Origin: an uncultured Lachnospiraceae bacterium
GTDB taxonomy: Bacteria; Bacillota; Clostridia; Lachnospirales; Lachnospiraceae
DNA length: 32,909 nucleotides
Assembly: GCA_946536155.1 (NCBI GenBank)
Contig: CAMNEB010000011.1
Span: 1-32,909 of the forward strand
Direction: 5' to 3'
A model generated the notes under the pieces. The model saw only the letters and a program-made list of their open reading frames with translations, was not told the origin of the DNA and searched no databases. Positions within the stretch are counted from its first letter, which is position 1; the number at the start of each line of letters is the position of its first letter. Positions 1 through 23,121 of this stretch are shown piece after piece. A program made the translations under genes and the position numbers.

Positions 1-52
1 TCCCGGATACCGCTTCATCTCAGGTATCTTTTAATCCCGCGAGATTTTGTCA

Positions 53-3370: not shown

Positions 3371-5473
3371 TCATCTTACGGAAAACAGCATGTCGCCGTA
3401 TGAAGGATAAGGCCAGTCTTTGGAAGAAACTATCGTTTCCGCCTCATCGACTGCGGCTCTGAGTTCTCCCATTCCGGGGATGAGCCTGTCTCTTATCGCA
3501 GCGCTCTCAGCCATGATATCCTCCGCATCGGCAAGAGAGATAACAGCCTTCTCAACCTCTCCCGCTCTTTCGTATATCCTGTCCGCAAGATATGAAAGTC
3601 TTGAGATGACTCCCGTCTCATAGGAGCATGCAAGGGAGGCATTAAGTGCCTTCTTTGCGGAGGCGGTTTCGGAAAGCTTTTCCGAGTATGCGGTGACAGC
3701 CGGGAGTATCTGTCTGTATGCCATATCGATCATCGTATTTGCCTCGATACGGACCTGTTTGCAGTAGTTCTCCAGCATGATCTCGCATCTGGACTCGATC
3801 TCTTTTTTGGTGAACACTCCGTGTCCTGTGAGGACTCTGACATTCTTTTCGTCGAGGATATGAGGCATGCAGTCGGGGGTCGTTCTGTAGTTGCTGAGTC
3901 CCCTGACTTCGGTGGCTTCTTTGACCCAGGCATCATCGTAACCGTTTCCGTTGAACAGGATCCTCTTGTGATCCTTGATGGTCTTTTTGATCATCTCATG
4001 AAGGGTCTTTTCGAAATCCTCTGCTCCTTCAAGTCTGTCAGCATAGATCTTGAGTGATTCGGCGACCACGGTGTTGAGCATGATGTTTGCACATGCAATG
4101 GAGTTGGATGAACCGAGGCTTCTGAATTCGAACTTATTGCCGGTAAATGCAAAAGGCGATGTTCTGTTTCTGTCCGTTGTGTCTCTGGGGAATGCGGGGA
4201 GAACATCGACTCCCAGCTTCATGATCTTCTTCTCTGTTCCGCTGTAGGGCTTATCTTCTTCGATTGCATCAAGGATAGCGGAAAGTTCGTCGCCCAGGAA
4301 TACGGAGATGATAGCGGGAGGTGCTTCGTTGGCTCCGAGTCTGTGATCGTTTCCGGCGGTTGCGACCGAGAGTCTGAGAAGATCCTGATAATCGTCAACA
4401 GCCTTGATGACAGCACAGAGGAAAAGCAGGAACTGTGCATTCTCATAAGGCGTATCTCCGGGGGAGAGAAGGTTTACTCCCGTATCCGTAGCCATTGACC
4501 AGTTATTGTGCTTGCCGCTTCCGTTTACACCGGCGAAGGGCTTCTCATGAAGCAGGCACACAAGTCCGTGTCTGGATGCGACCTTCTGCATGATCTCCAT
4601 CATCAGCTGGTTCTGGTCGGTGGCGATATTTGTGGTCGAGAAGATCGGTGCAAGCTCATGCTGTGCGGGAGCAACCTCATTGTGCTCTGTCTTGGCAAGG
4701 ATTCCCAGTTTCCAAAGTTCCTCGTTAAGATCGTTCATAAACGCCTGTACTCTGGGCTTGATGACTCCGAAATAATGATCGTCCATCTCCTGGCCCTTGG
4801 GAGGTCTTGAACCGTAAAGAGTTCTTCCGGTGTATTTAAGATCGGGACGCATGTCATACATTTCCTTGGTTATGAGGAAATATTCCTGCTCCGGTCCGAC
4901 CGAAGTCTTGACGTTCTTAACAGATGTATTTCCGAAGAGACGAAGTATCCTGAGTGCCTGTTTATTCAGTGCTTCCATAGAACGGAGCAGAGGGGTCTTC
5001 TTATCGAGTGCCTCTCCGCTGTACGAACAGAAAGCAGTGGGGATGCAGAGAGTCTTATCCTTGATGAAAGCATATGAAGTGGGATCCCATGCGGTATATC
5101 CCCTCGCCTCAAATGTTGCTCTCAATCCTCCGGAAGGAAAGGATGATGCGTCGGGCTCACCCTGGATGAGTTCCTTGCCGGAAAACTCCATTATGACACT
5201 TCCGTCAGGTGAAGGGGTGATGAATGAATCATGCTTCTCGGCAGTGATGCCTGTAAGGGGCTGGAACCAGTGCGTGAAATGTGTTGCTCCTTTTTCGAGA
5301 GCCCATTCCTTCATTGCCTGGGCTACCGACTCCGCAACCTTGGGATCAAGCTTCTTGCCCTCGTCGATTGTCTTTCTGAGGGAAGCATAGACTTTTGATG
5401 AAAGTCTGGATCTCATCTGACGATCGTCAAAAACAAGTGCTCCGAAATAATCAGGTACTGAATGTGTTGCCAT
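3371..5473 (-). CDS. glnN: Type III glutamine synthetase
   Basis: ATP-dependent synthesis of glutamine from glutamate and ammonium; the type III enzyme is a large dodecamer distinct from GlnA. The 700-residue length is typical of GSIII. Family motifs seen are [13 protein letters not shown] at 63-75, GPEQEYFL at 193-200, [12 protein letters not shown] at 265-276 and [10 protein letters not shown] at 317-326. The open frame extends 29 codons upstream, but AAAGGAGG sits just before the ATG at 5473 and the upstream codons lie in the leader terminator, so 5473 is the start. It has its own promoter and a leader with an ANTAR-type hexaloop hairpin overlapping a terminator. Expression is therefore probably set by antitermination, with the regulator gene directly upstream. 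A second, type I synthetase lies two genes upstream. Confidence 0.96.
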
Positions 5474-5495: not shown

Positions 5496-5551
5496 AAAAA
5501 CAGAAAAAGACAAAGGCGCCTTTTCTGCTGGTTACAGAAAAGACGCCTTTG
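5496..5551 (-). terminator. glnN leader terminator (attenuator)
   Basis: A 17-bp stem with one G-U pair: 5' arm 5551-5535 (CAAAGGCGTCTTTTCTG), seven-base loop 5534-5528, 3' arm 5527-5511 (CAGAAAAGGCGCCTTTG), then TCTTTTTCTGTTTTT. It lies between the glnN promoter and its ribosome binding site, so unregulated transcription should stop before the gene. The 5' arm reuses the loop and 3' arm of the hexaloop hairpin at 5537-5558, making the two structures mutually exclusive. Confidence 0.88.
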
Positions 5552-5558
5552 CCTTTTC
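5537..5558 (-). promoter_or_regulatory. ANTAR-type hexaloop antiterminator hairpin, glnN leader
   Basis: GAAAAGGC (5558-5551) pairs with GTCTTTTC (5544-5537), eight bp with one G-U, closing the loop AAAGGC (A at position 1, G at position 4). Known ANTAR targets are hairpins with six-base loops having A1 and G4. The hairpin begins at the predicted RNA 5' end. If held by the regulator it would sequester the terminator 5' arm. Classical ANTAR sites have two such hairpins; only one is seen here. Confidence 0.72.
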
Positions 5559-5565
5559 AAATGAT

Positions 5566-5594
5566 AAATTACTACCGGATGCCTGCGTTGTCAA
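5566..5594 (-). promoter_or_regulatory. glnN promoter
   Basis: TTGACA (5594-5589), 17-bp spacer, TAATTT (5571-5566). The predicted start, about 5559, is the first base of the hexaloop hairpin. A matching layout is found at gltB and amt. Confidence 0.75.
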
Positions 5595-5617
5595 GCGGTA
5601 AGTTTGGGATATATATC

Positions 5618-5651
5618 ATAAAACCGTTTCATGTGCGCAGACCGGTTTTAT
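5618..5651 (-). terminator. Possible terminator after the ANTAR gene
   Basis: ATAAAACCG (5651-5643) and CGGTTTTAT (5626-5618) form a perfect nine-bp stem with a 16-base loop, overlapping the stop codon. There is no separate U-tract beyond the 3' arm, so termination is likely inefficient. Confidence 0.4.
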
Positions 5652-6232
5652 CCGTAAGTCTTCAGAATATTTTCCGCAGTCTCTTTTTTGCTCAGGCACA
5701 GATCCATGGCCTGTTTCTGGATATATCTGTGGGCTTCGTCCTCGGTCATGGAGCAGGATTTGATAAGTGCCCACTTAGCCCTGTTGACGAGTCTTATCTC
5801 TTCCATCTTGTCCTCAAGAGAAACCGTCTTTTTGCCTATCGCTCTGAGTCTTTCCCTTACGCTGCACATGGAATCTATGAGCTGCTGCATTACGGTCAAG
5901 GACAGGGGCCTCCTTGCGACCAGCACTCCCCTTGAAGTCATGGACAGATTGATGTCATCGTACATCTCGTTTTTGACGAGAAGAAGTGCGACTCTCTCGC
6001 TTTCGGTACAGATATCCACCGCAAACTTCCTTCCGAAATCATCAGGGAGCGGCGAGTTGATGATCACGATATCGTAATCCCTCTCGGACATGATCCTCTG
6101 TGCGGCAGCCACGGACGACACTTCGGTGACGGGATCGAACCTGCCTCCGTTAAACATCGGCACGATCGCACTATTCAGTTTTTCAGATGCCGATACGAGC
6201 AGCACACTGTATATTCGTGACGCCGGTGTCAT
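5648..6232 (-). CDS. ANTAR-domain RNA-binding antitermination regulator
   Basis: Predicted RNA-binding transcription antiterminator of the pseudo-receiver plus ANTAR type, 194 residues. The first 120 residues have receiver-like secondary structure (VLLVSAS, then DYDIVIINSPLPD), but the phosphoacceptor Asp position reads Asn/Ser (IINS, 57-60) and the switch Lys-Pro reads RRP. It is therefore unlikely to be a phosphorylated response regulator. Residues about 137-194 carry the ANTAR three-helix domain (EEIRLVNRAKWALIKS, then MTEDEAHRYIQKQAMD). The start at 6232 follows AAAGGGAATAA. It lies between glnA and glnN, 70 nt after glnA. The leaders of glnN, gltB and amt in this window contain the kind of hexaloop hairpin ANTAR proteins bind, so its targets are probably these genes. 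A related clostridial arrangement (a glnA-linked ANTAR gene called nitR or glnR) is known; the local target assignment is inference. Confidence 0.93.
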   Translation of the reverse strand: MTPASRIYSVLLVSASEKLNSAIVPMFNGGRFDPVTEVSSVAAAQRIMSERDYDIVIINSPLPDDFGRKFAVDICTESERVALLLVKNEMYDDINLSMTSRGVLVARRPLSLTVMQQLIDSMCSVRERLRAIGKKTVSLEDKMEEIRLVNRAKWALIKSCSMTEDEAHRYIQKQAMDLCLSKKETAENILKTYG

Positions 6233-6245
6233 TTATTCCCTTTCA

Positions 6246-6265
6246 TCCTGACTCATATGTCAGGA
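6246..6265 (-). promoter_or_regulatory. Hexaloop hairpin just before the ANTAR gene start
   Basis: TCCTGAC and GTCAGGA form a perfect seven-bp stem around the six-base loop ATATGA, ending a few nt before the ribosome binding site. It resembles the nearby ANTAR targets in loop size and A1, but position 4 is T, so it fails the G4 rule. It may affect translation of the regulator. Confidence 0.4.
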
Positions 6266-6302
6266 ATAGTTTTTTCAGCCGGGATGATCTCTACCGCAGG
6301 GA

Positions 6303-7517
6303 TCAGTTCTTACCGCCCAGATACGCACCGAGCAGTTCTGCGGGGACAACTTCCTTCAGGAAGGAGCTTTCCGATGCTGTCTTTACGGCCTCACTCAGGG
6401 AACCGGGAAGTCTCTTGACGGGCAGGGAATCCGCAGGTTCTCTGTACAGGTTCCTTGTGATCTTATCCGGTGCATTCATGCCTTTATCCATTCCGGCAAG
6501 TCCGGCATAGATGAGAAGTCCGAATGCAAGATAGGGATTTGCGAGGGGATCGGGAGATCTGAGCTCCGCTCTTTTAAATTCTCCGAATGCCGCAGGGATC
6601 CTGATGAGCGTCGATCTGTTCTCATCCGCCCATGCCACGATTCCGGGAGCCTTGGATGATCCGAGTCTTTTATATGAATCCTGGGAGGGATTCATGAATA
6701 CTGTCATATCCTCAACATACTCGAGTATTCCGGCAACTATATGGTCCGGTTCCACGTATGTTCCGTCTTTTTTTACCGAGAAATTGATATGCATTCCGTT
6801 CCCGGGCTTATCCTTTAAAGGCTTGGGGGAAAAATCGGCACTGGTTCCGTTCCTGGAAGCGATGACTCCCACCACCGAGCGGAAGGTCATTGCATCATCG
6901 GCCGCTTTCAGTGCATCGCAGTATCTGAAATCTATCTCGTTCTGTCCCGGGCCCTCCTCATGGTGGGAGCTCTCAGGGAATATGCCCATCTGTTCGAGTG
7001 TTATGCATATCTCTCTGCGTATATTCTCTCCCTTATCCGCAGGGGCGATATCCATATATCCCGCATTGTCATAAGGTATTCCGGTACTTTCACCCTCAAG
7101 GTCATTTCTGAACAGATAAAACTCCTGTTCCGTTCCGAAGCTGAAGGTGTATCCCTTTGCCTTTGCGGTCTCTATCGCTTTCTTGAGGAAAGTTCTGGTA
7201 TCACATTCAAAGGGTCTTCCGTCGGGCCAGGTGATATCACAGTACATTCTTACAACCCTTCCGTGCTCGGGTCTCCATGGCAGAAATGCCAGCGTGTCGG
7301 GATCCGGGTGAAGGAAAATATCGGATCTGTCAAAACCTTCGAATCCCGCAACAGACCATGCATCTATGGATATCCCCTCACTGAATGCCCTCTCAAGTTC
7401 GGTCGGCATTATGGATACGTTTCTGGGTCTTCCGAAGACATCGCAGAATGCGAGACGGATGAATTTCACATCCTCTTCCTCAACAAACTGCATAACTTCC
7501 TGCTTGGTGTAATTCAT
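6303..7517 (-). CDS. glnA: Type I glutamine synthetase, short C-terminus
   Basis: Glutamine synthesis from glutamate, ammonium and ATP. Active-site motifs are GTEQEF at 128-133, HHEEGPGQNEID at 185-196, GNGMHINFS at 239-247 and an ENRSTLIRIP block. The protein is only 404 residues, whereas class I enzymes are about 440-470. It ends soon after the NLY loop that precedes the final helices, lacking the usual C-terminal EW..YR..V..WE segment that joins the two rings. Other frames after the stop do not restore it, so this does not look like a frameshift. The ATG at 7517 is chosen over an upstream in-frame ATG because GGGAGG lies five nt before it. It follows gltD by 114 nt. Its leader has only the terminator stub seen in full at amt, gltB and glnN. 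Confidence 0.93.
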   Translation of the reverse strand: MNYTKQEVMQFVEEEDVKFIRLAFCDVFGRPRNVSIMPTELERAFSEGISIDAWSVAGFEGFDRSDIFLHPDPDTLAFLPWRPEHGRVVRMYCDITWPDGRPFECDTRTFLKKAIETAKAKGYTFSFGTEQEFYLFRNDLEGESTGIPYDNAGYMDIAPADKGENIRREICITLEQMGIFPESSHHEEGPGQNEIDFRYCDALKAADDAMTFRSVVGVIASRNGTSADFSPKPLKDKPGNGMHINFSVKKDGTYVEPDHIVAGILEYVEDMTVFMNPSQDSYKRLGSSKAPGIVAWADENRSTLIRIPAAFGEFKRAELRSPDPLANPYLAFGLLIYAGLAGMDKGMNAPDKITRNLYREPADSLPVKRLPGSLSEAVKTASESSFLKEVVPAELLGAYLGGKN

Positions 7518-7553
7518 AAATCCTCCCTGCAAAAAAAGGCGTTTTTGTTTCAA

Positions 7554-7582
7554 AAAATACAATATGTCCGTTCATTAGTCAA
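7554..7582 (-). promoter_or_regulatory. Candidate glnA promoter with a terminator relic downstream
   Basis: TTGACT (7582-7577), 17-bp spacer, TATTTT (7559-7554). The predicted leader then reads AAACAAAAACGCCTTTTTTT, that is, the 3' arm and U-tract of the cluster's leader terminators without a matching 5' arm or hexaloop. From this promoter glnA should escape the attenuation seen at its neighbours. Confidence 0.55.
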
Positions 7583-7631
7583 ACAGTTTCTTTACGGACG
7601 TTCCGGATCTGTCAGGGCTCTTGTATCTGCG

Positions 7632-9095
7632 TTATGCGTTTCTGTAACCCATCAGGTATTCATCCACCTCTGCCGCCGCAGCGGTTCCTTCTGCCAGAGC
7701 CCATACAACAAGGCTCTGTCCGCGCCTCATATCCCCGGCGGCAAAAACTCCGGGAATATTTGTGGAATATTTTCCTTCCGGTGTTGCGACCGCTCCTCTC
7801 TGTGTCATTTCGAGCTTAAAGAGTTCGGGAAGTTTTTTCTCCGCACCGACGAATCCCGCTGCTATGAGGAGAAGGTCGCACTTTATCTTCTTCTCGGTAC
7901 CTTTTACATTTATGAGTCTGCCGTTTTCAAATCCGGTTTCAACGGTCTCTATCTCGGTGATCTTTCCCTTTTTTGAGATGACTTTCCTGACCGTTGTCTT
8001 GAATACTCTGGGATCTTCTCCGAATACTTCCTTCGCCTCAACATGTCCGTAATCGGTCCTGAGGGTCTTCGGCCATTCGGGCCAGGGATTGTTTTCGGTT
8101 CTGTTAACGGGAGGCTTTGGCATCATCTCAAGAGCCGTTACGGATCTGCATCCCATTCTGATGACGGTTCCGATACAGTCATTGCCCGTATCTCCTCCGC
8201 CTACGATCACGACATGTTTATCCTTTGCATCAAAGCATGCGGGAAGAGGTTCAATATCAAGAACATTTCTTGTTGCGGCCTTAAGAAAATCCACGGCATA
8301 GTAAATGCCCTCGCAGCCTTCCATACCCTCGGCATTCAGGGCTCTGGGCTGCTTTGCACCGCAGCACAGCACCACCGCATCATATTCCTTCTTAAGTGAG
8401 CTGACCTTTACTTTATCTCCGACAGAGACCCCCGTCTTAAAGACGATGCCCATATCCTCCATGAGCTTCTGCCTTCTTGCAATGACGCTCTTATCAAGCT
8501 TCATATTGGGAATACCGTACATAAGGAGCCCGCCGATGCGGTCGTCTCTTTCATATACGGTGACCGCATGACCTCTTCTTCTGAGAGCATCGGCCGCCGC
8601 AAGTCCGGATGGTCCGCTGCCGATAACGGCGACCTTTTTGCCGCTTTCCCTGACCGGAGCATCCCCCTTCATCAGACCGTTTTTGTAGCCCTCTTCAATA
8701 AGATAGAGTTCATTGTCCCTGACGGTGACGGGATCGTCATACTGTCCGCAGATACATGCCTTCTCACAGAGGGCGGGGCAGACCCTTCCGGTGAATTCGG
8801 GGAATCTGTTCGTCTTAAGGAGCCTTGCGAGGGCATGTGAATCCTCGCCTCTGTAGATTGCATCATTCCACTCGGGGATCAGATTGTGAAGCGGACATCC
8901 GACGACCATTCCGCTGAGCTGCATCGCAGACTGGCAGAAAGGGACTCCGCAGTTCATGCATCTGGCACCCTGACATCTTCTTACTTCCTCGGATGCAAAA
9001 GTATGGAATTCCTTATAATTCTTTATTCGTTCCCCGGCCGGTATCTCATTGTTTTCTTTCCTGGCATATTCAAGAAATCCTGTCTGTTTTCCCAT
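7632..9095 (-). CDS. gltD: Glutamate synthase (NADPH), small subunit
   Basis: Supplies electrons from NADPH through FAD and iron-sulfur clusters to GltB for reductive synthesis of glutamate from 2-oxoglutarate and glutamine. The 487-residue length is typical. N-terminal cysteines that ligate two [4Fe-4S] clusters are at 46, 49, 54 and 67 (RCMNCGVPFCQS, then GCPLH) and 106, 110, 114 and 116 (RVCPALCEKACIC). The FAD site is KVAVIGSGPSGLAAADALRR and the NADPH site is HVVIVGGGDTGNDCIG. The start at 9095 follows an AGGT-like binding site and gives the conserved family N-terminus. It lies 74 nt after gltB and is surely co-transcribed. The gap contains a small GTCCG-GATA-CGGAC hairpin but no clear terminator. 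Confidence 0.96.
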   Translation of the reverse strand: MGKQTGFLEYARKENNEIPAGERIKNYKEFHTFASEEVRRCQGARCMNCGVPFCQSAMQLSGMVVGCPLHNLIPEWNDAIYRGEDSHALARLLKTNRFPEFTGRVCPALCEKACICGQYDDPVTVRDNELYLIEEGYKNGLMKGDAPVRESGKKVAVIGSGPSGLAAADALRRRGHAVTVYERDDRIGGLLMYGIPNMKLDKSVIARRQKLMEDMGIVFKTGVSVGDKVKVSSLKKEYDAVVLCCGAKQPRALNAEGMEGCEGIYYAVDFLKAATRNVLDIEPLPACFDAKDKHVVIVGGGDTGNDCIGTVIRMGCRSVTALEMMPKPPVNRTENNPWPEWPKTLRTDYGHVEAKEVFGEDPRVFKTTVRKVISKKGKITEIETVETGFENGRLINVKGTEKKIKCDLLLIAAGFVGAEKKLPELFKLEMTQRGAVATPEGKYSTNIPGVFAAGDMRRGQSLVVWALAEGTAAAAEVDEYLMGYRNA

Positions 9096-9169
9096 TTTCT
9101 TTACCTGTTTCCATTACTCGTTTTTACTCATGACCGGACATTTTTTTCGCCTGTCCGTATCCGGACCGG

Positions 9170-12100
9170 TCATACTGCAGAACCCGTCAGTTCCCTGAAT
9201 GCTTCAAGCTCGGAATCTTCCCTCGAAATGCCCTGCTCTTCGTATTTCCCGATAGTCCTTATCATTTTCTGATAATCCCTTGCGATGACTTTCTTAAATC
9301 CGGGAAGTTCATCATCGAAATCATCAAGTATCTTTCTGCCGAGTTCGGATCCCGTTGATCTGACATAATCTTCAAGTATGCCTTTTAATTCCTCGATGTC
9401 ATACTTTTCTCTCACCTCTTCGAGTTCGACCATATCCTTGTTGATCTTACGGTAAAGGCTGTGGTCCTTATCCAGTACATAAGCGATACCGCCGCTCATG
9501 CCGGCAGCGAAGTTCTTGCCTGTAGTGCCGAGTATCACGGCTCTTCCGCCGGTCATATACTCAAGTCCGTGATCTCCGCAGCCTTCCGCAACCGCCACTG
9601 CACCTGAATTCCTGACGCAGAATCTTTCACCCGCTATACCGCATATATATGCCTTTCCCGAGGTCGCACCGTAGAGGGCGACATTACCTGCTATGATATT
9701 TTCCGAAGCCTTGAAAGGACTCTTTTCGGGAGGCGTGAGGATCAGCTTTCCGCCGGACAATCCCTTTCCGAATCCGTCGTTTGCATCACCGCATAGCTTT
9801 ATCGTAAGTCCGTGGGGAATGAATGCACCGAAGGACTGTCCGCCGCCGCCTTCGCAATTTACCACGAATCTGTCTTCGGAGAGCCTTGCGCAATCCTCTC
9901 CGTATTTTCTTACTATCTCAGATCCGAGTATCGTTCCGAAGGTCCTGTCTGTGGAACTTACCTTAAGAGAAACTGATGAGCTCTTCTCCTTTGACTTTAC
10001 GGACTTTTCAAACCAGGGAAGGAGCTTTTTCTCATCAAGGGTCTTCCCGAGTTCAAAGTCAAAGCTCTGCTCAGGGTCGAATCTGTTTTCCTTTACCTTC
10101 TCAAACCCTTCGGTAAGTATGCGGTCAAAGCATATGGTCTTTGCATGAGGCTGTTTTAAATGCTCTCTTTTTCTCAGGCAGTCCGTGCGGCCTATCATCT
10201 CATCGATGCTCTTAAAGCCCAGCTCTGCCATGATCTCCCGAAGCTGCATGGCGACGAATGTCATGAAGTTCATGACGTGCTCCGGCTTGCCTGCAAATCT
10301 CTTCCTGAGGAGCTCATTCTGTGTTGCGATACCCACCGGGCAGGTATCCTTGGAGCATACTCTCATCATCATGCATCCGAGTGATACCAGAGGAGCGGTT
10401 GCGAATCCGTATTCCTCGGCACCGAGGAATGCTGCGATGGCCACATCACGGCCCGTCATGAGCTTTCCGTCGGTCTCTATCCTCACCCTCTGTCTCAGGC
10501 CGCTCTCGATGAGTGCCTGGTGTGTTTCTGCGACCCCGAGTTCCCAGGGAAGTCCGGCTGAGTGCACTGAGCTGTACGGAGCAGCACCGGTTCCTCCGTC
10601 ATAACCGGATATAAGGACGACCTGCGCACCCGCCTTTGCAACACCGGATGCGATGGTGCCGACACCCGCTTCCGAAACGAGCTTTACCGATATCCTCGCA
10701 TCTCTGTTTGCATTCTTAAGGTCATATATGAGCTGTGCGAGATCCTCAATGGAGTAGATATCATGATGAGGAGGAGGGGATATCAGCTGCACGCCGGGCG
10801 TCGAGCATCTGGTCTTTGCAACCCAGGGATATACCTTCTTTGCAGGAAGATTTCCGCCTTCTCCGGGCTTTGCGCCCTGCGCCATCTTTATCTGTATCTC
10901 TTTGGCGGAAAGAAGGTATTCCTCAGTGACTCCGAAACGTCCCGATGCTACCTGCTTCACCGCACTGTTCCTGTCAGTTCCGAATCTGTCGGATGCTTCT
11001 CCGCCTTCACCGGTATTTGAGCGTCCGCCGAGTCTGTTCATAGCGATGGCTATGGTCTCGTGAGCTTCTCTTGAAAGCGAACCGTAGCTCATGGCACCAA
11101 CCTGGAATCTCTTTACGATCTCGGAAACGGGCTCGACATCATCTATCGAAACAGGTTCACCCGCGGGAACAAATTCAAGAAGTCCCCTTAATGTATGAGG
11201 ATGTTCCGCATCATCCACAAATGCGGTATATTCCTTGAATTTTTCATAGTCCCCCGTTCTGACTGCCTGCTGTAGGAGAACTATTGTCTTGGGACTGTAG
11301 AGATGATCCTCCTTGCCTGCGCCGCTCCTTAAGTTATGGAAACCCGTGCTGTCAAGGACCGGATCGATGGGAAGACCCATCGGATCGAAGGCTCTGTCAT
11401 GTCTGTATGCGATGCCCTCTTCGAGTTCCTTCACTCCTATACCGCCGACCCTGCTTGATACGCCGGTAAAATATTTCTCAATGACTTCATCTGAAAGTCC
11501 GATCGCTTCGAAGATCCTTGCGGACTGATAGGACTGGATGGTGGAGATACCCATTTTCGCGGCTATTTTGACCACTCCGGAAAGAAGCGCTTTATCAAAA
11601 TCATCGATAGCAGTATGGAGGTCCTTGTCGAGAAGCCCCAGTGTGATAAGTTCTTCGATGCATTCGTGTGCAAGATAAGGATTGACCGCACGTGCACCGA
11701 ATCCCAGGATACATGCGGTCTGATGCACATCCCTCACCTCAGCGGTCTCCACGATGAGTGAAACCGCGGTTCTCTTTTTGGTATGGACAAGGTGCTGCTC
11801 AACTGCGGATACCGCAAGAAGAGCGGGGATGGGGACATGGTTTTCATCCACTCCTCTGTCCGAGAGGATGATGATATTAGCTCCGCCCGATACTGCGCGG
11901 TCAACTGCCAGATAGAGCTGTTCCACGGCGCGTGAAAGCGAGGTGTGTTTATAGTAAAGGAGTGATACCGTTTCGTTTTTGAATCCCTTGTGCTTCATCG
12001 ATCTTATCTTCATAAGATCCACACCGGTGAGGACCGGGTTGTTTACTTCGAGTACAGTGCAGTTCTCACTCTTTTCACTTAAAAGGTCTCCGTCCGAGCC

Positions 12101-13699
12101 TATATATACCGTTGTGTCGGTCACGATCTTTTCACGCAGCGAATCTATGGGAGGATTTGTGACCTGTGCAAACTGCTGCTTAAAGAAGCCGTAGAGCAGC
12201 GGATGGTTTTCCGAAAGCGATGCAAGGGGAACATCATGTCCCATGGATACCGTCGGCTCCGCTCCGTTTGCTGCGGCCTCGAGAATATAGGACTTGACCT
12301 CCTCATAGCTGTAGCCGAAAACCTTGTACAGTCTGTCGCGCTCTTTCTGTGTATGTACCGGAACCTGATGGTTCGGGATAGTCAGATCCTTCAGATGGGT
12401 CAGGTGCGCATCCAGCCATTCACCGTAGGGATGGGATGAAGCATAGAATTCTTTGCACTCTTCATCCGAGATGATCCTCTTCTTGCGGGTGTCCACAAGG
12501 AGCATTCTTCCCGGAGTGAGCCTTGATTTTTTGATGATGTGCTCCGGAGCTATATCAAGTACGCCAACCTCGGATGAAAGGATAAGACGGTTATCATCGG
12601 TAATGTAATATCTGGAAGGTCTGAGTCCGTTACGGTCAAGTGTCGCACCGAAGAGCTCACCGTCAGTAAAGAGGATTGCGGCGGGTCCGTCCCAGGGCTC
12701 CATCATCGTCGCATAGTAATGGTAAAAATCCTTCTTGGATTCGCTCATGAAGCGGTTGTGCTTCCAGGGCTCAGGGATGAGTGCCATCATGGCGAGAGGA
12801 AGATCCATTCCGTTCATGTAGAGGAATTCAAGAGTGTTGTCGAGCATTGCGGAATCCGATCCGCTGGCTGAGATGACGGGATAGATCTTGCCGGCATCCT
12901 CTTCCAGGAGCTTTGAATGCATCGTCTCTTCGCGCGCCAGCATTCTGTCGGAGTTGCCGCGTATGGTGTTGATCTCACCGTTATGTGCGATGAATCTGTA
13001 CGGGTGGGCCCTCTCCCAGCTGGGAAGAGTGTTGGTGGAGAATCTGGAATGAACCAGTGCGATCGCCGAGAGGTAATCCCTGCTCTGAAGATCGTCATAG
13101 AATCTCCTGAGCTGTCCCACCAGGAACATTCCTTTATAAACTATGGTACGTGATGAAAGTGAACAGATATAGGTATCATCTGAGCTCTGTTCAAACTCTC
13201 TTCTCACCACATAAAGTCTTCTGTCAAAATCGATACCCTTCTCCACCTGCCCGGGCTTTTTAAGGAAGCACTGCCAGATGGAAGGCTGACAGTCCAGGGC
13301 TCTCTTTCCGAGGATCTCGGGATGGATGGGAACCTCTCTCCAGCCTATCGTATCGATCCCTTCTTTGCCGGCAATGACTTCAAAGAGTCTCTTGGCAAAA
13401 GTTCTCTTGAGTTCATCCTGAGGCAGGAAGAACATTCCTATGCCGTACTCGCCCGCTGATCCGAGCTTAATGCCGGACTTCTTACATACGGCGGAAAAGA
13501 AGGAATGTGAGATCTGCAGCATAATGCCGACACCGTCTCCGACCTTTCCGCTGGCATCCTTTCCCGCTCTGTGCTCAAGCTTTTCAACTATTGTAAGCGC
13601 ATCATCCATTACGGAATATTCGGGAACGCCGTCGATCTTGACTATCGCACCTATACCGCAGGCATCATGTTCTCTGTCGTATGAAAGATTATTGTTCAT
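9170..13699 (-). CDS. gltB: Glutamate synthase (NADPH), large subunit
   Basis: Catalytic subunit of bacterial GOGAT: a glutaminase domain releases ammonia, which is channelled to an FMN site that aminates 2-oxoglutarate. The 1509 residues are full length. A 13-residue propeptide precedes the nucleophile Cys14 (HDACGIGAIV). The FMN-binding and synthase centre follows, with KPGEGGNLPAKKV and the phosphate-binding ISGYDGGTGAAPYSS. Cysteines 1109, 1115 and 1120 (GCMMMRVCSKDTC) ligate the [3Fe-4S] cluster with the family spacing. The C-terminal glycine-rich GXGXG beta-helix domain is present. AGAGG sits eight to nine nt before the ATG. Expression starts from its own promoter and passes an ANTAR-type leader. 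With GltD and the two glutamine synthetases it completes the ammonium-fixing cycle. Confidence 0.97.
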   Translation of the reverse strand: MNNNLSYDREHDACGIGAIVKIDGVPEYSVMDDALTIVEKLEHRAGKDASGKVGDGVGIMLQISHSFFSAVCKKSGIKLGSAGEYGIGMFFLPQDELKRTFAKRLFEVIAGKEGIDTIGWREVPIHPEILGKRALDCQPSIWQCFLKKPGQVEKGIDFDRRLYVVRREFEQSSDDTYICSLSSRTIVYKGMFLVGQLRRFYDDLQSRDYLSAIALVHSRFSTNTLPSWERAHPYRFIAHNGEINTIRGNSDRMLAREETMHSKLLEEDAGKIYPVISASGSDSAMLDNTLEFLYMNGMDLPLAMMALIPEPWKHNRFMSESKKDFYHYYATMMEPWDGPAAILFTDGELFGATLDRNGLRPSRYYITDDNRLILSSEVGVLDIAPEHIIKKSRLTPGRMLLVDTRKKRIISDEECKEFYASSHPYGEWLDAHLTHLKDLTIPNHQVPVHTQKERDRLYKVFGYSYEEVKSYILEAAANGAEPTVSMGHDVPLASLSENHPLLYGFFKQQFAQVTNPPIDSLREKIVTDTTVYIGSDGDLLSEKSENCTVLEVNNPVLTGVDLMKIRSMKHKGFKNETVSLLYYKHTSLSRAVEQLYLAVDRAVSGGANIIILSDRGVDENHVPIPALLAVSAVEQHLVHTKKRTAVSLIVETAEVRDVHQTACILGFGARAVNPYLAHECIEELITLGLLDKDLHTAIDDFDKALLSGVVKIAAKMGISTIQSYQSARIFEAIGLSDEVIEKYFTGVSSRVGGIGVKELEEGIAYRHDRAFDPMGLPIDPVLDSTGFHNLRSGAGKEDHLYSPKTIVLLQQAVRTGDYEKFKEYTAFVDDAEHPHTLRGLLEFVPAGEPVSIDDVEPVSEIVKRFQVGAMSYGSLSREAHETIAIAMNRLGGRSNTGEGGEASDRFGTDRNSAVKQVASGRFGVTEEYLLSAKEIQIKMAQGAKPGEGGNLPAKKVYPWVAKTRCSTPGVQLISPPPHHDIYSIEDLAQLIYDLKNANRDARISVKLVSEAGVGTIASGVAKAGAQVVLISGYDGGTGAAPYSSVHSAGLPWELGVAETHQALIESGLRQRVRIETDGKLMTGRDVAIAAFLGAEEYGFATAPLVSLGCMMMRVCSKDTCPVGIATQNELLRKRFAGKPEHVMNFMTFVAMQLREIMAELGFKSIDEMIGRTDCLRKREHLKQPHAKTICFDRILTEGFEKVKENRFDPEQSFDFELGKTLDEKKLLPWFEKSVKSKEKSSSVSLKVSSTDRTFGTILGSEIVRKYGEDCARLSEDRFVVNCEGGGGQSFGAFIPHGLTIKLCGDANDGFGKGLSGGKLILTPPEKSPFKASENIIAGNVALYGATSGKAYICGIAGERFCVRNSGAVAVAEGCGDHGLEYMTGGRAVILGTTGKNFAAGMSGGIAYVLDKDHSLYRKINKDMVELEEVREKYDIEELKGILEDYVRSTGSELGRKILDDFDDELPGFKKVIARDYQKMIRTIGKYEEQGISREDSELEAFRELTGSAV

Positions 13700-13720
13700 G
13701 TTCTTTTCCTCTCAGATCAG

Positions 13721-13770
13721 AAATAAAAAGAAAAAAGCGCCTCTGGTGCCGTTTTGACACCAGAGACGCC
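13721..13770 (-). terminator. gltB leader terminator (attenuator)
   Basis: A 14-bp stem with two G-U pairs: 5' arm 13769-13756 (GCGTCTCTGGTGTC), loop AAAAC, 3' arm 13750-13737 (GGCACCAGAGGCGC), then TTTTTTCTTTTTATTT. It sits between the promoter and ribosome binding site. The G-U pair falls at a base that must also pair in the overlapping hexaloop hairpin, as in the glnN leader. Confidence 0.87.
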
Positions 13771-13779
13771 ATTGCCTCT
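13762..13779 (-). promoter_or_regulatory. ANTAR-type hexaloop antiterminator hairpin, gltB leader
   Basis: AGAGGC (13779-13774) pairs with GTCTCT (13767-13762) around AATGGC, giving A1 and G4. The stem differs from the glnN one but keeps pairing, the closing C-G and the neighbouring G-U. It begins at or just after the predicted RNA 5' end and overlaps the terminator 5' arm. Confidence 0.7.
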
Positions 13780-13787
13780 TGCAGAAT

Positions 13788-13816
13788 AAAATAATCTTTT
13801 TAGCACACTATGTCAA
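13788..13816 (-). promoter_or_regulatory. gltB promoter
   Basis: TTGACA (13816-13811), 17-bp spacer, TATTTT (13793-13788). The predicted transcription start is about 13781, immediately before the hexaloop hairpin. Confidence 0.75.
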
Positions 13817-13868
13817 GAAAAAATTTATTCTGCAGGAGTTATTATGTTTTTAACATGATCCGAATACC

Positions 13869-15629
13869 TTACTCCACATCCTGCAATGCAGCATAATCCT
13901 CTTCGCCTGTCCTGATCTTCACGACTCTGCTGACAGGATATACGAAAACTTTACCGTCGCCGATCTTGCCGGTGTAAAGAGTCTTCTTGGCGGTTTCGAT
14001 AACAGCATCAACAGGGATCTTGCTGACAACAACTTCCATCTTGATCTTGGGAAGAAGTGTCATATCCATCTCCACGCCTCTGTACATCTCTCCCGCACCC
14101 TTCTGGATACCGCATCCGGTAACCTGGGTAACGGTGATACCCGTAACACCGAGATCGTTGAGCGCTCTCTTCATTGCATCATATCTGGAGAGCTTGGTGA
14201 TGATGACAACCTTGTGCATTCCGGTATCTGCCACTACACCCGCAGCCTTCATTTCCTTCTCAGCGTCAACAACCTGTACGGATGCTTTCTTCTGAGCATC
14301 GCTTGCCTTATCGTAATCAGCGGTTCCGAGACTGGTGTTCTCGTTCTCACTCATTACAGCACCTGAAAGATCAACAATGCTGAAGCCTGCATATGCGGAT
14401 GCAAGACCGTGCTCTTTGATATCGAGACCTTCGATCTCCTCTTCTTCGGTAACGCGGAGTCCGAAGATTGCTTTGATTATCGAAAATACTACTACCATTC
14501 CGACTACGGTCCATGCTGCAACAGCCGCAAATCCGAGGAGCTGTTTTCCGAGAAGCTCAAATCCGCCGCCGTAGAAAAGACCGGTAAGTTCACTGTCCGG
14601 AGCGGTGGGTGTTGCAAAGAGACCGACTGCGATGGTTCCCCAGATACCGTTCATCATGTGTACCGCAACGGCACCGACAGGATCATCAACATGAAGCTTG
14701 TAATCAAGAAGCCATACGCCGAAGCATACAAGAAGTCCGGCAACAGCACCGATAATAATTGCACCGAATGCATCGGTTACATCACAGGGAGCGGTGATCG
14801 CTACGAGACCTGCGAGTGAAGCGTTCATACACATTGAAACATCGGGCTTGCCATATTTGATCCAGGTAAAGATCATACATACGACTGTTGCGATTGAAGG
14901 AGCGATCGTTGTCGTTACGAATACGGATGCGAGCTGATCTACAGAAGTACATGCAGCACCGTTGAATCCGTACCAACCGAGCCAGAGAATGAATACACCG
15001 AGTGCACCGATGGGAATGTTATGTCCGGGGAATGCGTTTACCTTGGTAACCTTACCCTTGGAATCTTTTTCAAACTTTCCGATACGGGGTCCTACCATGA
15101 TCGCACCGATAAGTGCTGAGATACCGCCGACCATGTGGATTGCACATGATCCTGCGAAATCATGGAAACCGAGCTGAGCGAGCCAGCCGCCGCCCCAGAT
15201 CCAGTGTGCCTCAATGGGATAGATAAGTGCCGAGATAACTGCGGAGTATACACAGTAGCTCAAGAATCTGGTTCTTTCTGCCATAGCACCGGATACTATG
15301 GTTGCGGTTGTTGCACAGAACACAAGGTTGAATACGAAGTTTGACCAGTCAAAATTTTCGTAAGCGGTGAAGATGTCGAATCCGGGCTTTCCGATAAATC
15401 CGCAAAGATCCTCACCAAGCAGTAATCCGAAACCGATCAGGATAAACACGCAGCATCCAATGCAGAAATCCATCAGGTTCTTCATCAGGATATTTCCGGC
15501 ATTCTTAGCCCTCGTAAATCCCGTTTCCACCATCGCAAATCCGGCCTGCATCCAAAACACCAGTGCCGCACCGATCAGAAACCATACGGCAAAAAGTTTT
15601 CCGTCAACAATACTTAAGATCTCTTCCAT
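13869..15629 (-). CDS. amt: Ammonium channel fused to a PII regulatory domain
   Basis: A 586-residue fusion. Residues about 1-410 form an Amt/AmtB ammonium channel with some eleven membrane helices. The pore twin-histidines are probably His165 (AIHMVGG) and His324 (AVHMMNG), and the cytoplasmic tail includes EEEEIEGLD. A 50-residue polar linker leads to a complete PII (GlnB/GlnK) domain at about 471-580. It has the T-loop Tyr516 (MYRGVE), which corresponds to the uridylylation Tyr51, and the C-terminal PII signature TGKIGDGKVFVYP at 553-565. PII normally plugs Amt in response to nitrogen and energy state, so a covalent fusion suggests a built-in gate. The ATG at 15629 is chosen over an earlier in-frame one because AGAGGAGG precedes it. 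It is the first gene of the nitrogen cluster and has a tandem attenuator leader. Confidence 0.95.
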   Translation of the reverse strand: MEEILSIVDGKLFAVWFLIGAALVFWMQAGFAMVETGFTRAKNAGNILMKNLMDFCIGCCVFILIGFGLLLGEDLCGFIGKPGFDIFTAYENFDWSNFVFNLVFCATTATIVSGAMAERTRFLSYCVYSAVISALIYPIEAHWIWGGGWLAQLGFHDFAGSCAIHMVGGISALIGAIMVGPRIGKFEKDSKGKVTKVNAFPGHNIPIGALGVFILWLGWYGFNGAACTSVDQLASVFVTTTIAPSIATVVCMIFTWIKYGKPDVSMCMNASLAGLVAITAPCDVTDAFGAIIIGAVAGLLVCFGVWLLDYKLHVDDPVGAVAVHMMNGIWGTIAVGLFATPTAPDSELTGLFYGGGFELLGKQLLGFAAVAAWTVVGMVVVFSIIKAIFGLRVTEEEEIEGLDIKEHGLASAYAGFSIVDLSGAVMSENENTSLGTADYDKASDAQKKASVQVVDAEKEMKAAGVVADTGMHKVVIITKLSRYDAMKRALNDLGVTGITVTQVTGCGIQKGAGEMYRGVEMDMTLLPKIKMEVVVSKIPVDAVIETAKKTLYTGKIGDGKVFVYPVSRVVKIRTGEEDYAALQDVE

Positions 15630-15666
15630 AACTTTTTCCTCCTCTGGATTTTCGGAGCTCCTGTTC

Positions 15667-15714
15667 AAAACAAAAAAGGCGCTTTCAACTTCCGGTAAAG
15701 TCAAAAGCGCCTTT
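15667..15714 (-). terminator. amt leader terminator 2
   Basis: A 17-bp stem made of AAAGGCGCTTT (15714-15704) with AAAGCGCCTTT (15685-15675), extended by TGACTT/AAGTTG around loop TACCGG, then TTTTTTGTTTTG. It is the closest sequence match to the glnN terminator. Confidence 0.86.
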
Positions 15715-15719
15715 GCTTT
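15704..15719 (-). promoter_or_regulatory. ANTAR-type hexaloop hairpin 2, amt leader
   Basis: AAAGC (15719-15715) pairs with GCTTT (15708-15704) around AAAGGC, with A1 and G4. This is the same loop as at glnN with a shorter stem. Its loop and 3' arm form the 5' arm of terminator 2. Confidence 0.65.
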
Positions 15720-15730
15720 ATACAGGTTAT

Positions 15731-15765
15731 AAAAAAGGAGTTCCGGATCTTCTTTCCGGAACTCC
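15731..15765 (-). terminator. amt leader terminator 1
   Basis: A perfect 11-bp stem, GGAGTTCCGGA (15765-15755) with TCCGGAACTCC (15747-15737), seven-base loop, then six T. It lies about 15 nt after the predicted transcription start, upstream of a second terminator, so amt is doubly attenuated. Confidence 0.88.
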
Positions 15766-15775
15766 CTTGCTCCAA
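15756..15775 (-). promoter_or_regulatory. ANTAR-type hexaloop hairpin 1, amt leader
   Basis: TTGGAGC (15775-15769) pairs with GTTCCGG (15762-15756) around AAGGGA, with A1 and G4. The stem has G-U pairs, including one next to the closing C-G as in the glnN and gltB hairpins. It overlaps the 5' arm of terminator 1. Confidence 0.65.
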
Positions 15776-15786
15776 TTTATGCTCGA

Positions 15787-15815
15787 ATAATACTCTGTAA
15801 AAAAATATTTGTCAA
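15787..15815 (-). promoter_or_regulatory. amt promoter
   Basis: TTGACA (15815-15810), 17-bp AT-rich spacer, TATTAT (15792-15787). The best -10 of the nitrogen leaders. Predicted start about 15780. Confidence 0.8.
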
Positions 15816-17942: not shown

Positions 17943-18200
17943 AAAAAAATCCCTGACAGTATACTGATACTGTCAGGGACGAATAATCATCTTACTCGCG
18001 GTGCCACCCTGCTTCATGGTATGACCCATGCTCTTGCGGGATACCTTCATATCCCCGGCAACTGACGTATGCCTCACGTCGCAGTATTTCCTCTGCGCCC
18101 TCCGGAGTCCATTCACAGGGGACCGTACTGTGCGGATCACACCATCCCGCACTCTCTCTTAAGCCGCTTTCCCGGGCTACTCCTCTCCGTCATCGGTTTT
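17943..18200 (-). promoter_or_regulatory. Tryptophan T-box riboswitch
   Basis: Leader RNA that senses uncharged tRNA-Trp. Stem I has the GGAGTA and AGAGAGAGTGCGGGATGGTG elements. The specifier codon is UGG at 18111-18109 in the context GTGAATGGACTCC. The T-box AGGGTGGCACCGCG lies at 18010-17997; its UGGC bulge would pair with tRNA 3' GCCA, which suits the G discriminator of tRNA-Trp. AGGG pairs with CCCT of GTCCCTG to form the antiterminator. The competing terminator (17979-17943) is a perfect 13-bp stem TCCCTGACAGTAT/ATACTGTCAGGGA with loop CAGT followed by seven T. All parts are in the correct order for control of trpE-trpG. Confidence 0.95.
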
Positions 18201-18215
18201 ATATAAGTTTTTAAC

Positions 18216-22969: not shown

Positions 22970-23121
22970 ATAAAAAAGAAAGAGAAAACGCTTTGAAGGA
23001 ATTAAAGCGTGCTTAATTCCACCGGACCGTACACATCCCGGCTGCCTGCAAAGCCCCTTTGAGGGATCCTGCTGGGCCCGGTCACAGGCGCGGATATTCC
23101 GCATTTCTCTTTCTTTTTTAT
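22970..23121 (-). ncRNA. Putative retron-like structured RNA upstream of the reverse transcriptase
   Basis: About 150 nt between promoter and RT start. The ends are a perfect 18-bp inverted repeat: ATAAAAAAGAAAGAGAAA at 23121-23104 and its complement at 22987-22970. Inside, in order, are hairpin GCGGA/TCCGC (23102-23090); an eight-bp outer helix ACCGGGCC (23082-23075) with GGTCCGGT (23028-23021, one G-U); a nested stem CCTCAAAG/CTTTGCAGG around GGG (23064-23045); and hairpin GGAATTAAG/TTTAATTCC around CACGC (23020-22998). An alternative stem ACGCTTT/AAAGCGT (23010-22988) runs into a T-rich stretch. Paired ends around a folded core just upstream of the RT are the layout of retron msr-msd RNAs and of some DRT non-coding RNAs. 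The purine-rich arms are low in complexity, so the role as template or primer is inference. Confidence 0.6.

Follow-up and report, generated by a model that had tools for sequence, protein, structure and literature searches.

In the 32,909-nucleotide (nt) stretch of DNA analyzed here (the window; uncultured Lachnospiraceae bacterium, GenBank assembly GCA_946536155.1, contig CAMNEB010000011.1, positions 1 to 32,909), a minus-strand nitrogen-assimilation cluster was identified by a profile search of the open reading frames (ORFs). It comprises glnN, an ANTAR regulator gene, glnA, gltD, gltB, and an amt/P-II fusion. We conclude, with a probability of about 0.82, that glnN, gltB-gltD, and amt in this cluster are controlled by ANTAR attenuators built from a single hairpin per terminator.

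Each leader would work as a transcription attenuator. By default, the nascent RNA would fold into a strong terminator, and transcription would end without reaching the nitrogen gene. Alternatively, the initial ~20 nt of the RNA could form a weak hairpin with a six-nucleotide loop (hexaloop) that carries A at position 1 and G at position 4 (A1/G4) and is closed by a C-G pair. ANTAR is the known ligand of such hexaloops. When active, the ANTAR protein of the cluster would grip the single hexaloop, presumably as a dimer, stabilize the hairpin, and block the terminator. Antitermination would then switch on glnN and gltB-gltD, and also amt-glnK, whose leader has two units in series. By analogy with NitR of Clostridium saccharobutylicum, control would probably be activation on nitrogen limitation.

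The three leaders of the window contain four hairpin-terminator modules. They are listed below with hairpin loops in brackets and, where applicable, the score against R1, a covariance model built from 69 aligned modules.

5566..5594, minus strand: glnN promoter TTGACA-17-TAATTT; the -10 box is weak and below the consensus-scan threshold.
5537..5558, minus strand: glnN hairpin GAAAAGGC[AAAGGC]GTCTTTTC, loop 5550-5545; 7 nt past the -10 box; R1 49.7 bits.
5503..5552, minus strand: glnN terminator and T-tract, loop and 3' arm common to the hairpin (folding, terminator scan).
13788..13816, minus strand: gltB promoter TTGACA-17-TATTTT (pattern match and consensus scan).
13762..13779, minus strand: gltB hairpin AGAGGC[AATGGC]GTCTCT, loop 13773-13768; 8 nt past the -10 box; R1 46 bits.
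13730..13773, minus strand: gltB terminator and T-tract (folding, terminator scan).
15787..15815, minus strand: amt promoter TTGACA-17-TATTAT (pattern match and consensus scan).
15758..15773, minus strand: amt unit 1 hairpin GGAGC[AAGGGA]GTTCC, plus two outer U.G pairs, loop 15768-15763; 13 nt past the -10 box.
15731..15768, minus strand: amt unit 1 terminator and T-tract (folding, terminator scan).
15704..15719, minus strand: amt unit 2 hairpin AAAGC[AAAGGC]GCTTT, loop 15714-15709; R1 38.7 bits.
15672..15714, minus strand: amt unit 2 terminator and T-tract (folding, terminator scan).

An earlier note on this DNA had placed four hairpins here, each overlapping a strong terminator. A module scanner (A..G.. 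hexaloop, G/C closing pair, stem of at least 4 base pairs [bp], terminator 5' arm beginning in the loop or 3' arm) returned precisely these four sites, and no others, from both strands of the 32.9-kb window. The loop and 3' arm of each hairpin form the 5' arm of its terminator, and the two structures are mutually exclusive. The minimum free energies of the whole leaders are -46.3 (glnN), -31.9 (gltB), and -49.9 (amt) kcal/mol, with z scores of -10.2, -6.2, and -7.3, respectively, which reflect the strong terminators. All three leaders have TTGACA at 17-nt spacing; a consensus scan of the region gave 11 promoter-like sites compared to 10.4 expected, and promoter consensus by itself is therefore weak evidence. 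The amt leader consists of two complete hairpin-terminator units in series, and its interpretation as a classical pair was not borne out. Unit 1 of amt is atypical in both loop and stem; in the folding analysis, which treated its hairpin jointly with its terminator, the terminator won, and R1 misses the hairpin in the window genome. The same stem recurs with the loop AATGGA in L032 and L075, two loci of one genome.

The glnA leader (7525-7582, minus strand) has a promoter-like TTGACT-17-TATTTT at 7582-7554 (9/12), followed by AAACGCCTTTTTTT. The latter resembles the 3' half of a module terminator with the hairpin missing, and an intact glnA module occurs in three related loci (L032, L072, and L074). 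Judged from its sequence, the window glnA leader looks like a decayed copy of the module. With its own promoter-like site and a module lacking the hairpin, transcription of glnA and the ANTAR gene may escape module control. An Rfam search of the window and seven related loci left every module without a family match at gathering score. Membership in a known riboswitch or leader class was rejected; rli52 over the amt leader (32.2 bits compared to a cut-off of 70) was taken as a chance match.

We then examined related loci picked by ANTAR-protein similarity (40 regions from 129 matching genomes of the family, plus the best 80 of at least 576 confirmed stretches); related genomes enter all counts as independent. 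The 73 nitrogen-gene leaders of 41 such loci yielded 21 sites where an A..G hexaloop on a stem of 5 bp or longer overlaps a terminator, compared to a mean of 0.3 (maximum, 2) in 20 dinucleotide shuffles. Hexaloop sites numbered 106 in 230 leaders from 121 loci; 101 of them were closed by C-G, and 100 had A1/G4. The other loop sizes (3 to 5 and 7 to 10) gave 22 to 86 sites each, some of them identical hairpins read one pair shorter or longer, and only 0 to 3 per size were closed by C-G. Over the whole 121 loci (3.92 million strand-bases) there were 182 modules, of which 167 (162 unique) lay upstream of nitrogen or amide-transfer genes and 15 did not. The genes behind the 167 modules were mostly glnN (83), gltB or a GltB-like amidotransferase (45), glnA (19), and amt (9), with gdhA (5), asnB (2), purC (2), purA (1), and pyrG (1) being rarer. 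The gltB label also covers a separate amidotransferase (e.g., 364 amino acids in L038; GATase_2), and gdhA, asnB, purA, purC, and pyrG were named by eye from the protein start, with one example each checked in Pfam. In L077, a glnN-type module (10784, plus strand) precedes an open frame that gave no glnN match in the scan.

The scan behind this module set demanded A1, G4, and the C-G closing pair, leaving the other loop letters free. In the 162 unique modules (counting one false positive, the L039 glnA module with loop ATGGAG inside a coding sequence), position 2 was A in 160, position 3 was any of A, C, G, and T, position 5 was G in 145 and A in 17, and position 6 was C in 144. The terminator was more stable than the hairpin in 161 of the 162 (medians, -22.8 and -3.9 kcal/mol). 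The default state should therefore be off, with a ligand needed to hold the hairpin.

The hairpin sits at the very start of the predicted transcript. A promoter could be called for the first unit of 117 of 134 leaders, and in 97 of these 117 the -10 box ended 5 to 13 nt upstream of the stem, a spacing seen in just 1 of 28 second units from tandem leaders. Because transcription begins about 7 nt after the -10 box, the hairpin would start near positions +1 to +7 of the RNA. This agrees with the earlier suggestion, made for the window alone, that the hairpins begin at or near the RNA 5' end (7, 8, and 13 nt past the -10 box for glnN, gltB, and amt unit 1).

Antitermination targets in the literature have two hairpins (accessible text of PMC3369931 and PMC8164766), so our leaders might be classical dual-hexaloop sites whose first hairpin (P1) was overlooked, the transcript starting further upstream or P1 carrying an odd loop. 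The 97 leaders with a closely spaced -10 box leave no room for P1. When the 45 nt upstream were scanned for hexaloop hairpins with stems of 5 bp or longer, 0 of the 134 leaders had one lying between the -10 box and the module hairpin. Anywhere up to 45 nt upstream such hairpins were no more frequent than chance (21/134 compared to 24.6 shuffled), and the same was true of P1-like A..G hairpins of at least 3 bp (8 of 162 modules compared to 12.4 by shuffling). Unlike the dinucleotide shuffles used for the 73 leaders, the P1 and promoter controls used single-letter shuffles.

The test is able to detect P1, because clear P1-like hairpins emerged elsewhere in the phylum. In 21 modules from R1-match loci there, an upstream hexaloop hairpin was present in 9 compared to 3.6 expected (0 of 300 shuffles as high); this control required a Watson-Crick closing pair, which the 134-leader test did not, and was otherwise nearly identical. 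The hairpins of L206, L207, L209, and L210 (5 to 11 bp) are clearly P1-like and that of L208 is perhaps so, whereas those of L211 and L213 are AT-rich and that of L220 is an unrelated 14-bp hairpin. Leaders of eut genes had also been tried as a positive control, but they yielded 6 modules in 13 regions with a P1 candidate in 2, and the phylum matches were used instead. The test is imperfect, in that it missed at least one P1 of the wider phylum, a bulged hairpin recognized by eye (L217), and 17 of the 134 first units lack a strong promoter call. On balance, we consider an overlooked P1 very unlikely. The classical P1 is missing from these leaders, and the single hairpin noted before glnN and gltB in the window holds across all 134. 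The two-hairpin leaders L206, L207, L209, and L210, some of whose first loops are GANGGT and not A..G, precede asnB-like, amt, glnA-like, and amidotransferase genes (glnA of L209 and asnB of L206 by eye). These leaders of other parts of the phylum are possibly the ancestral form.

Next, we focused on the link between modules and ANTAR at the genome level, counting R1 matches with an E value of 0.1 or better. Of 150 genomes sampled from the family, 131 encode an ANTAR domain, 128 of them with one match each. R1 matched 65 of the 150 genomes, all among the 131 with ANTAR and none among the 19 without (hypergeometric P = 7.7e-6). R1 training sequences came from 14 of the 150 genomes, with further overlap with training loci possible; subtracting the training genomes leaves 52 of 117 with ANTAR compared to 0 of 19 without. 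In the phylum sample, which like the family sample contains the window genome, R1 matched 25 of 119 genomes, all among the 65 with ANTAR and none of the 54 without. A pattern of promoter plus loop matched 143 of 150 genomes, including ANTAR-less ones, and was too loose alone to serve as a co-occurrence test.

In the loci fetched, the covariance-model search of related genomes that the earlier note had called for led mostly to nitrogen genes. Among 29 R1-match loci fetched from the family, BLAST identified glnN (13), gltB (3), glnA (2), or amt (1) downstream in 19. Others, by eye, preceded gdhA (L165), asnB (L176 and L186), purF-like (L181), and guaA-like (L170) genes, and two had no readable frame. 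From the phylum, 11 of 19 fetched loci lay upstream of glnA, gltB-like, amt, or glnN genes. Modules or R1 matches, with several of the gene names given by eye, precede gdhA in L080, L112, L131, L138, and L165 and asnB in L044, L050, L176, and L186. The same holds for purC (L138), purA (L119), pyrG (L140), and the purF-like and guaA-like genes. Modules before gdhA, asnB, and nucleotide-synthesis genes suggest a wider amide-nitrogen regulon in the relatives. R1 matches also stand before an aminotransferase-like frame, named by eye, in L174 and L188.

In the window genome (83% complete), a whole-genome search found one ANTAR gene. With E values up to 10, R1 matched the window leaders, gave two mirror matches beside them within the window, and hit one further site at E 8.4; the symmetric glnN terminator yields an opposite-strand mirror match. 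The description of the regulon as self-contained therefore stands for this 83% of the genome, with R1 above noise only in this cluster. A wider regulon in the window genome was rejected: of five matches to a strict promoter-plus-loop pattern, three are in the window, and the other two (C13 and C90) have no hairpin.

A different effector, such as a small molecule, a tRNA, or another RNA-binding protein, would make the ANTAR gene a bystander. ANTAR binding is our inference, and about half of the ANTAR genomes of the family (66/131) have no R1 match, so that the link runs one way. Yet none of 73 examinations of ANTAR-less genomes gave an R1 match, and no Rfam family covers the modules at cut-off. 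In addition, the accessible text of PMC3369931 names the A1/G4 hexaloop and its fixed closing pairs as the ANTAR determinant, and the ANTAR protein keeps the RNA-contacting residues K149, E160, and M172 of EutV. We find this explanation highly improbable.

The regulator gene reported earlier inside the cluster (5648..6232, minus strand) encodes an ANTAR domain (PF03861) at 55.3 bits, above the curated cut-off of 27.3. The gene directly follows glnA in 114 of 118 loci, the other 4 being at contig ends. In 110 ANTAR proteins, the three EutV contacts above are invariant, and at the EutV Y164 position 108 have His, which AmiR shares, and 2 have Phe. The receiver phospho-Asp position is Asn in 101, Gly in 7, Leu in 1, and Thr in 1. 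Receiver phosphorylation is unlikely to be the switching signal. We guess that a direct ANTAR-GlnA link supplies it.

The stems themselves covary. In the 69 aligned modules, two-sided changes occurred in 6 of 7 pairs (98 such cells compared to 37.6 shuffled), and the covariation score was 0.570 compared to 0.242 shuffled and to at most 0.187 with the partner slid 1 to 3 columns. These sequences, used for both R1 and the covariation analysis, had been picked for a stem of at least 5 bp, which favors pairing. A set free of that choice was collected with the pattern TTGACA-16..18-TANNNT-8..18-CAANGRNG (the promoter plus the loop with its C..G closing letters). Stems reached 3 bp or more at all 115 unique pattern-only sites (one bp being fixed by the pattern) and 4 or more at 111, and 93 sites overlapped a terminator by our criteria. 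Pairing at positions 3 to 7 occurred in 115, 111, 105, 94, and 75 sites, compared to means of 87.6, 80.5, 53.8, 79.3, and 51.1 (above all 500 shuffles), and at position 8 it was no longer above the shuffles (34 compared to 32.7). Position 2 hardly varies, its pair being a G.U wobble in 96 of the 115; this fits the report that the top stem pairs of ANTAR hairpins are read by sequence (PMC3369931, in its accessible part). The stem typical of glnN (AAAGGC/GTCTTT) is set apart by several compensated pairs from the one frequent upstream of gltB-like and glnA genes (ATGAGC/GTTCAT). The earlier note had taken the different stems of the window as compensatory change; those four stems are separate sites whose differences prove nothing by themselves, and it is the orthologues that show the compensation. 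The note's reading would have been refuted by an absence of covarying stems among orthologous leaders, and both sets show the opposite. It is scarcely tenable that the modules are ordinary terminators with an A-tract/T-tract stem (AAAGGC...GCCTTT) whose small hairpins are incidental structures recognized by no protein: the loop AAAGGC is the 5' end of the terminator stem, its pairing with GCCTTT explains part of the conservation, and the glnN terminator has its mirror match, but the 5' arm of the hairpin, although not part of the core terminator stem, still covaries with the 3' arm, hexaloops exceed all other loop sizes in C-G closure, and R1 matches are absent from the ANTAR-less genomes (19 and 54).

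Several observations weigh against control by single-hairpin ANTAR attenuators. The isolated small hairpins fold no better than shuffled sequences (z of -1.1 for glnN, -1.1 for gltB, and -0.4 for amt unit 2); because they are not unusually stable, folding energy alone gives them no support. No module was found in 47 of the 73 nitrogen leaders, partly owing to misplaced starts or operon-internal genes. ANTAR genomes without an R1 match number 40 of 65 in the phylum in addition to the 66 of the family, although R1 derives from closer relatives and was run with strict filters. One hairpin is also not universal in number, since two units occur in 27 of 129 leaders; each has its own terminator, and tandem leaders repeat the whole unit with loops 54 to 138 nt apart, outside the published linker range. 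On the protein side, 86 of the 110 proteins have Glu and 17 have Gln at the EutV R168 position, and Ile stands opposite R142. EutV residues R175 and R177, which belong to a binding-null triple mutant, are mostly replaced by Cys (84/110) and Ser/Thr (93/110), at residues 179 and 181 of the window protein; these replacements could bear on single-hairpin recognition. From the published record (cited, as below, from the accessible part of each paper), deletion of P1 ablates eutP induction, and deletion of the second stem-loop abolished binding of a EutV ANTARcc fragment (PMC3369931). NasR needs ~12 uM to bind a hairpin on its own (PMC7496416), and single-hexaloop sites were expected only where transcription sets no time limit (PMC8934654).

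Antitermination by one hexaloop is nevertheless physically possible, since in the EutV structure both ANTAR domains of the dimer grip one hexaloop and a single P1 or P2 is bound with similar affinity (PMC8934654). That 2022 structure paper defined the minimal ANTAR site as one hexaloop and called for a bioinformatic search, while still arguing that antitermination needs two. Our guess is that start-proximal pausing or a high protein level replaces P1 here. A broader proposal, namely a lineage-wide ANTAR class in which a single hexaloop at the 5' end suffices without P1 and a regulator without receiver phosphorylation is switched by the neighboring GlnA, is tentative, and we regard it as rather unlikely in full.

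The closest well-described system is EutV/EutW with the eut leaders of Enterococcus faecalis, which shares a receiver-ANTAR protein (the window protein has a matching fold over 190 residues), the A1/G4 hexaloop, and the terminator-overlapping hairpin (PMC3369931, PMC8934654). The eut targets, however, have two hexaloops with a 5- to 12-nt linker, both needed, compared to one per terminator here, and EutV is phosphorylated at Asp54, where our proteins mostly have Asn (PMC3369931, PMC8934654). NitR, which we compare by description alone, is an ANTAR protein with glutamine synthetase/glutamate synthase genes in the C. saccharobutylicum glnA cluster and is reported to antiterminate them on nitrogen limitation; the accessible text of PMC6316151 describes no single-hexaloop, start-anchored RNA. 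Dual-hairpin targets have also been predicted in front of genes for glutamate synthase, Amt, P-II, and glutamine synthetase (PMC3369931 and, in actinobacteria, PMC8164766); these share the domain, the loop rule, and the kinds of genes. AmiR has a non-phosphorylated pseudo-receiver (PMC8934654) and, as here, His at the position stacking on G4, and NasR differs in its two-hairpin leader (PMC7496416); their sensors, AmiC or a NIT domain, differ as well. Precedents for one hexaloop are the extra hexaloop of EutX, proposed for sequestration and not for terminator-overlapping antitermination, and stem-loops near ribosome-binding sites of Mycobacterium tuberculosis, which are not always dual and were proposed for translation (PMC8934654). 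We found no description of single-hexaloop antitermination leaders in the accessible portion of the open-licence literature. The claim that the motif was previously undescribed thus holds in part: that ANTAR proteins control nitrogen genes was already established (PMC3369931; NitR via PMC6316151), and the one-hairpin, promoter-anchored layout appears to be new.

The genes of the cluster are as follows.

3371..5473, minus strand: glnN, type III glutamine synthetase; ATG at 5473, 700-amino-acid ORF, GSIII_N at 2.9e-82.
5648..6232, minus strand: ANTAR regulator gene, 194 amino acids; receiver-like domain (N59 in place of the phospho-Asp), followed by a long helix and an ANTAR domain at the C terminus.
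6303..7562, minus strand: glnA, type I glutamine synthetase, immediately 5' of the ANTAR gene (profile match).
7632..9095, minus strand: gltD, glutamate synthase small subunit (Fer4_20 and Pyr_redox_2).
9170..13699, minus strand: gltB, glutamate synthase large subunit (profile match).
13869..15629, minus strand: amt with a fused P-II (GlnK-like) domain; the ATG at 15629 is a predicted start, and the listed ORF begins with TTG at 15704.

Both the Ammonium_transp (5.8e-122) and P-II (3.4e-23) domains fall within the single ORF at 13869-15704 (minus strand), and the fusion would tether the nitrogen sensor to the channel. The gaps between gltB, gltD, glnA, and the ANTAR gene, all on the same strand, are 69 to 74 nt long, and the terminator scan found no terminator in them. 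Readthrough from gltB could therefore feed glnA and the ANTAR gene. Further 5' on the minus strand, a T-box leader (17972-18202; 94.3 bits compared to a gathering score of 93) precedes two ORFs that, by eye, are probably trpG and trpE. The RT-5 RNA family matches at 22984-23093 (minus strand; 62.1 bits compared to a gathering score of 45.7).

Published searches for dual-hairpin targets required two hairpins (PMC3369931, PMC8164766) and would miss one-hairpin sites, which consequently go unreported. In gut and rumen Clostridia, ammonium-assimilation genes appear to be switched by one hairpin where the well-studied version needs two, and the 134 natural leaders with one hexaloop per terminator make it possible to test the role of P1 directly. 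If the broader proposal is true, the single-hexaloop class conflicts with the view that such sites need the absence of a polymerase time limit, and the state of the GlnA enzyme would set transcription of the whole nitrogen-assimilation and amide-transfer regulon. The modules are a plausible global nitrogen-control circuit for Lachnospiraceae and their relatives, many of them gut or rumen bacteria.

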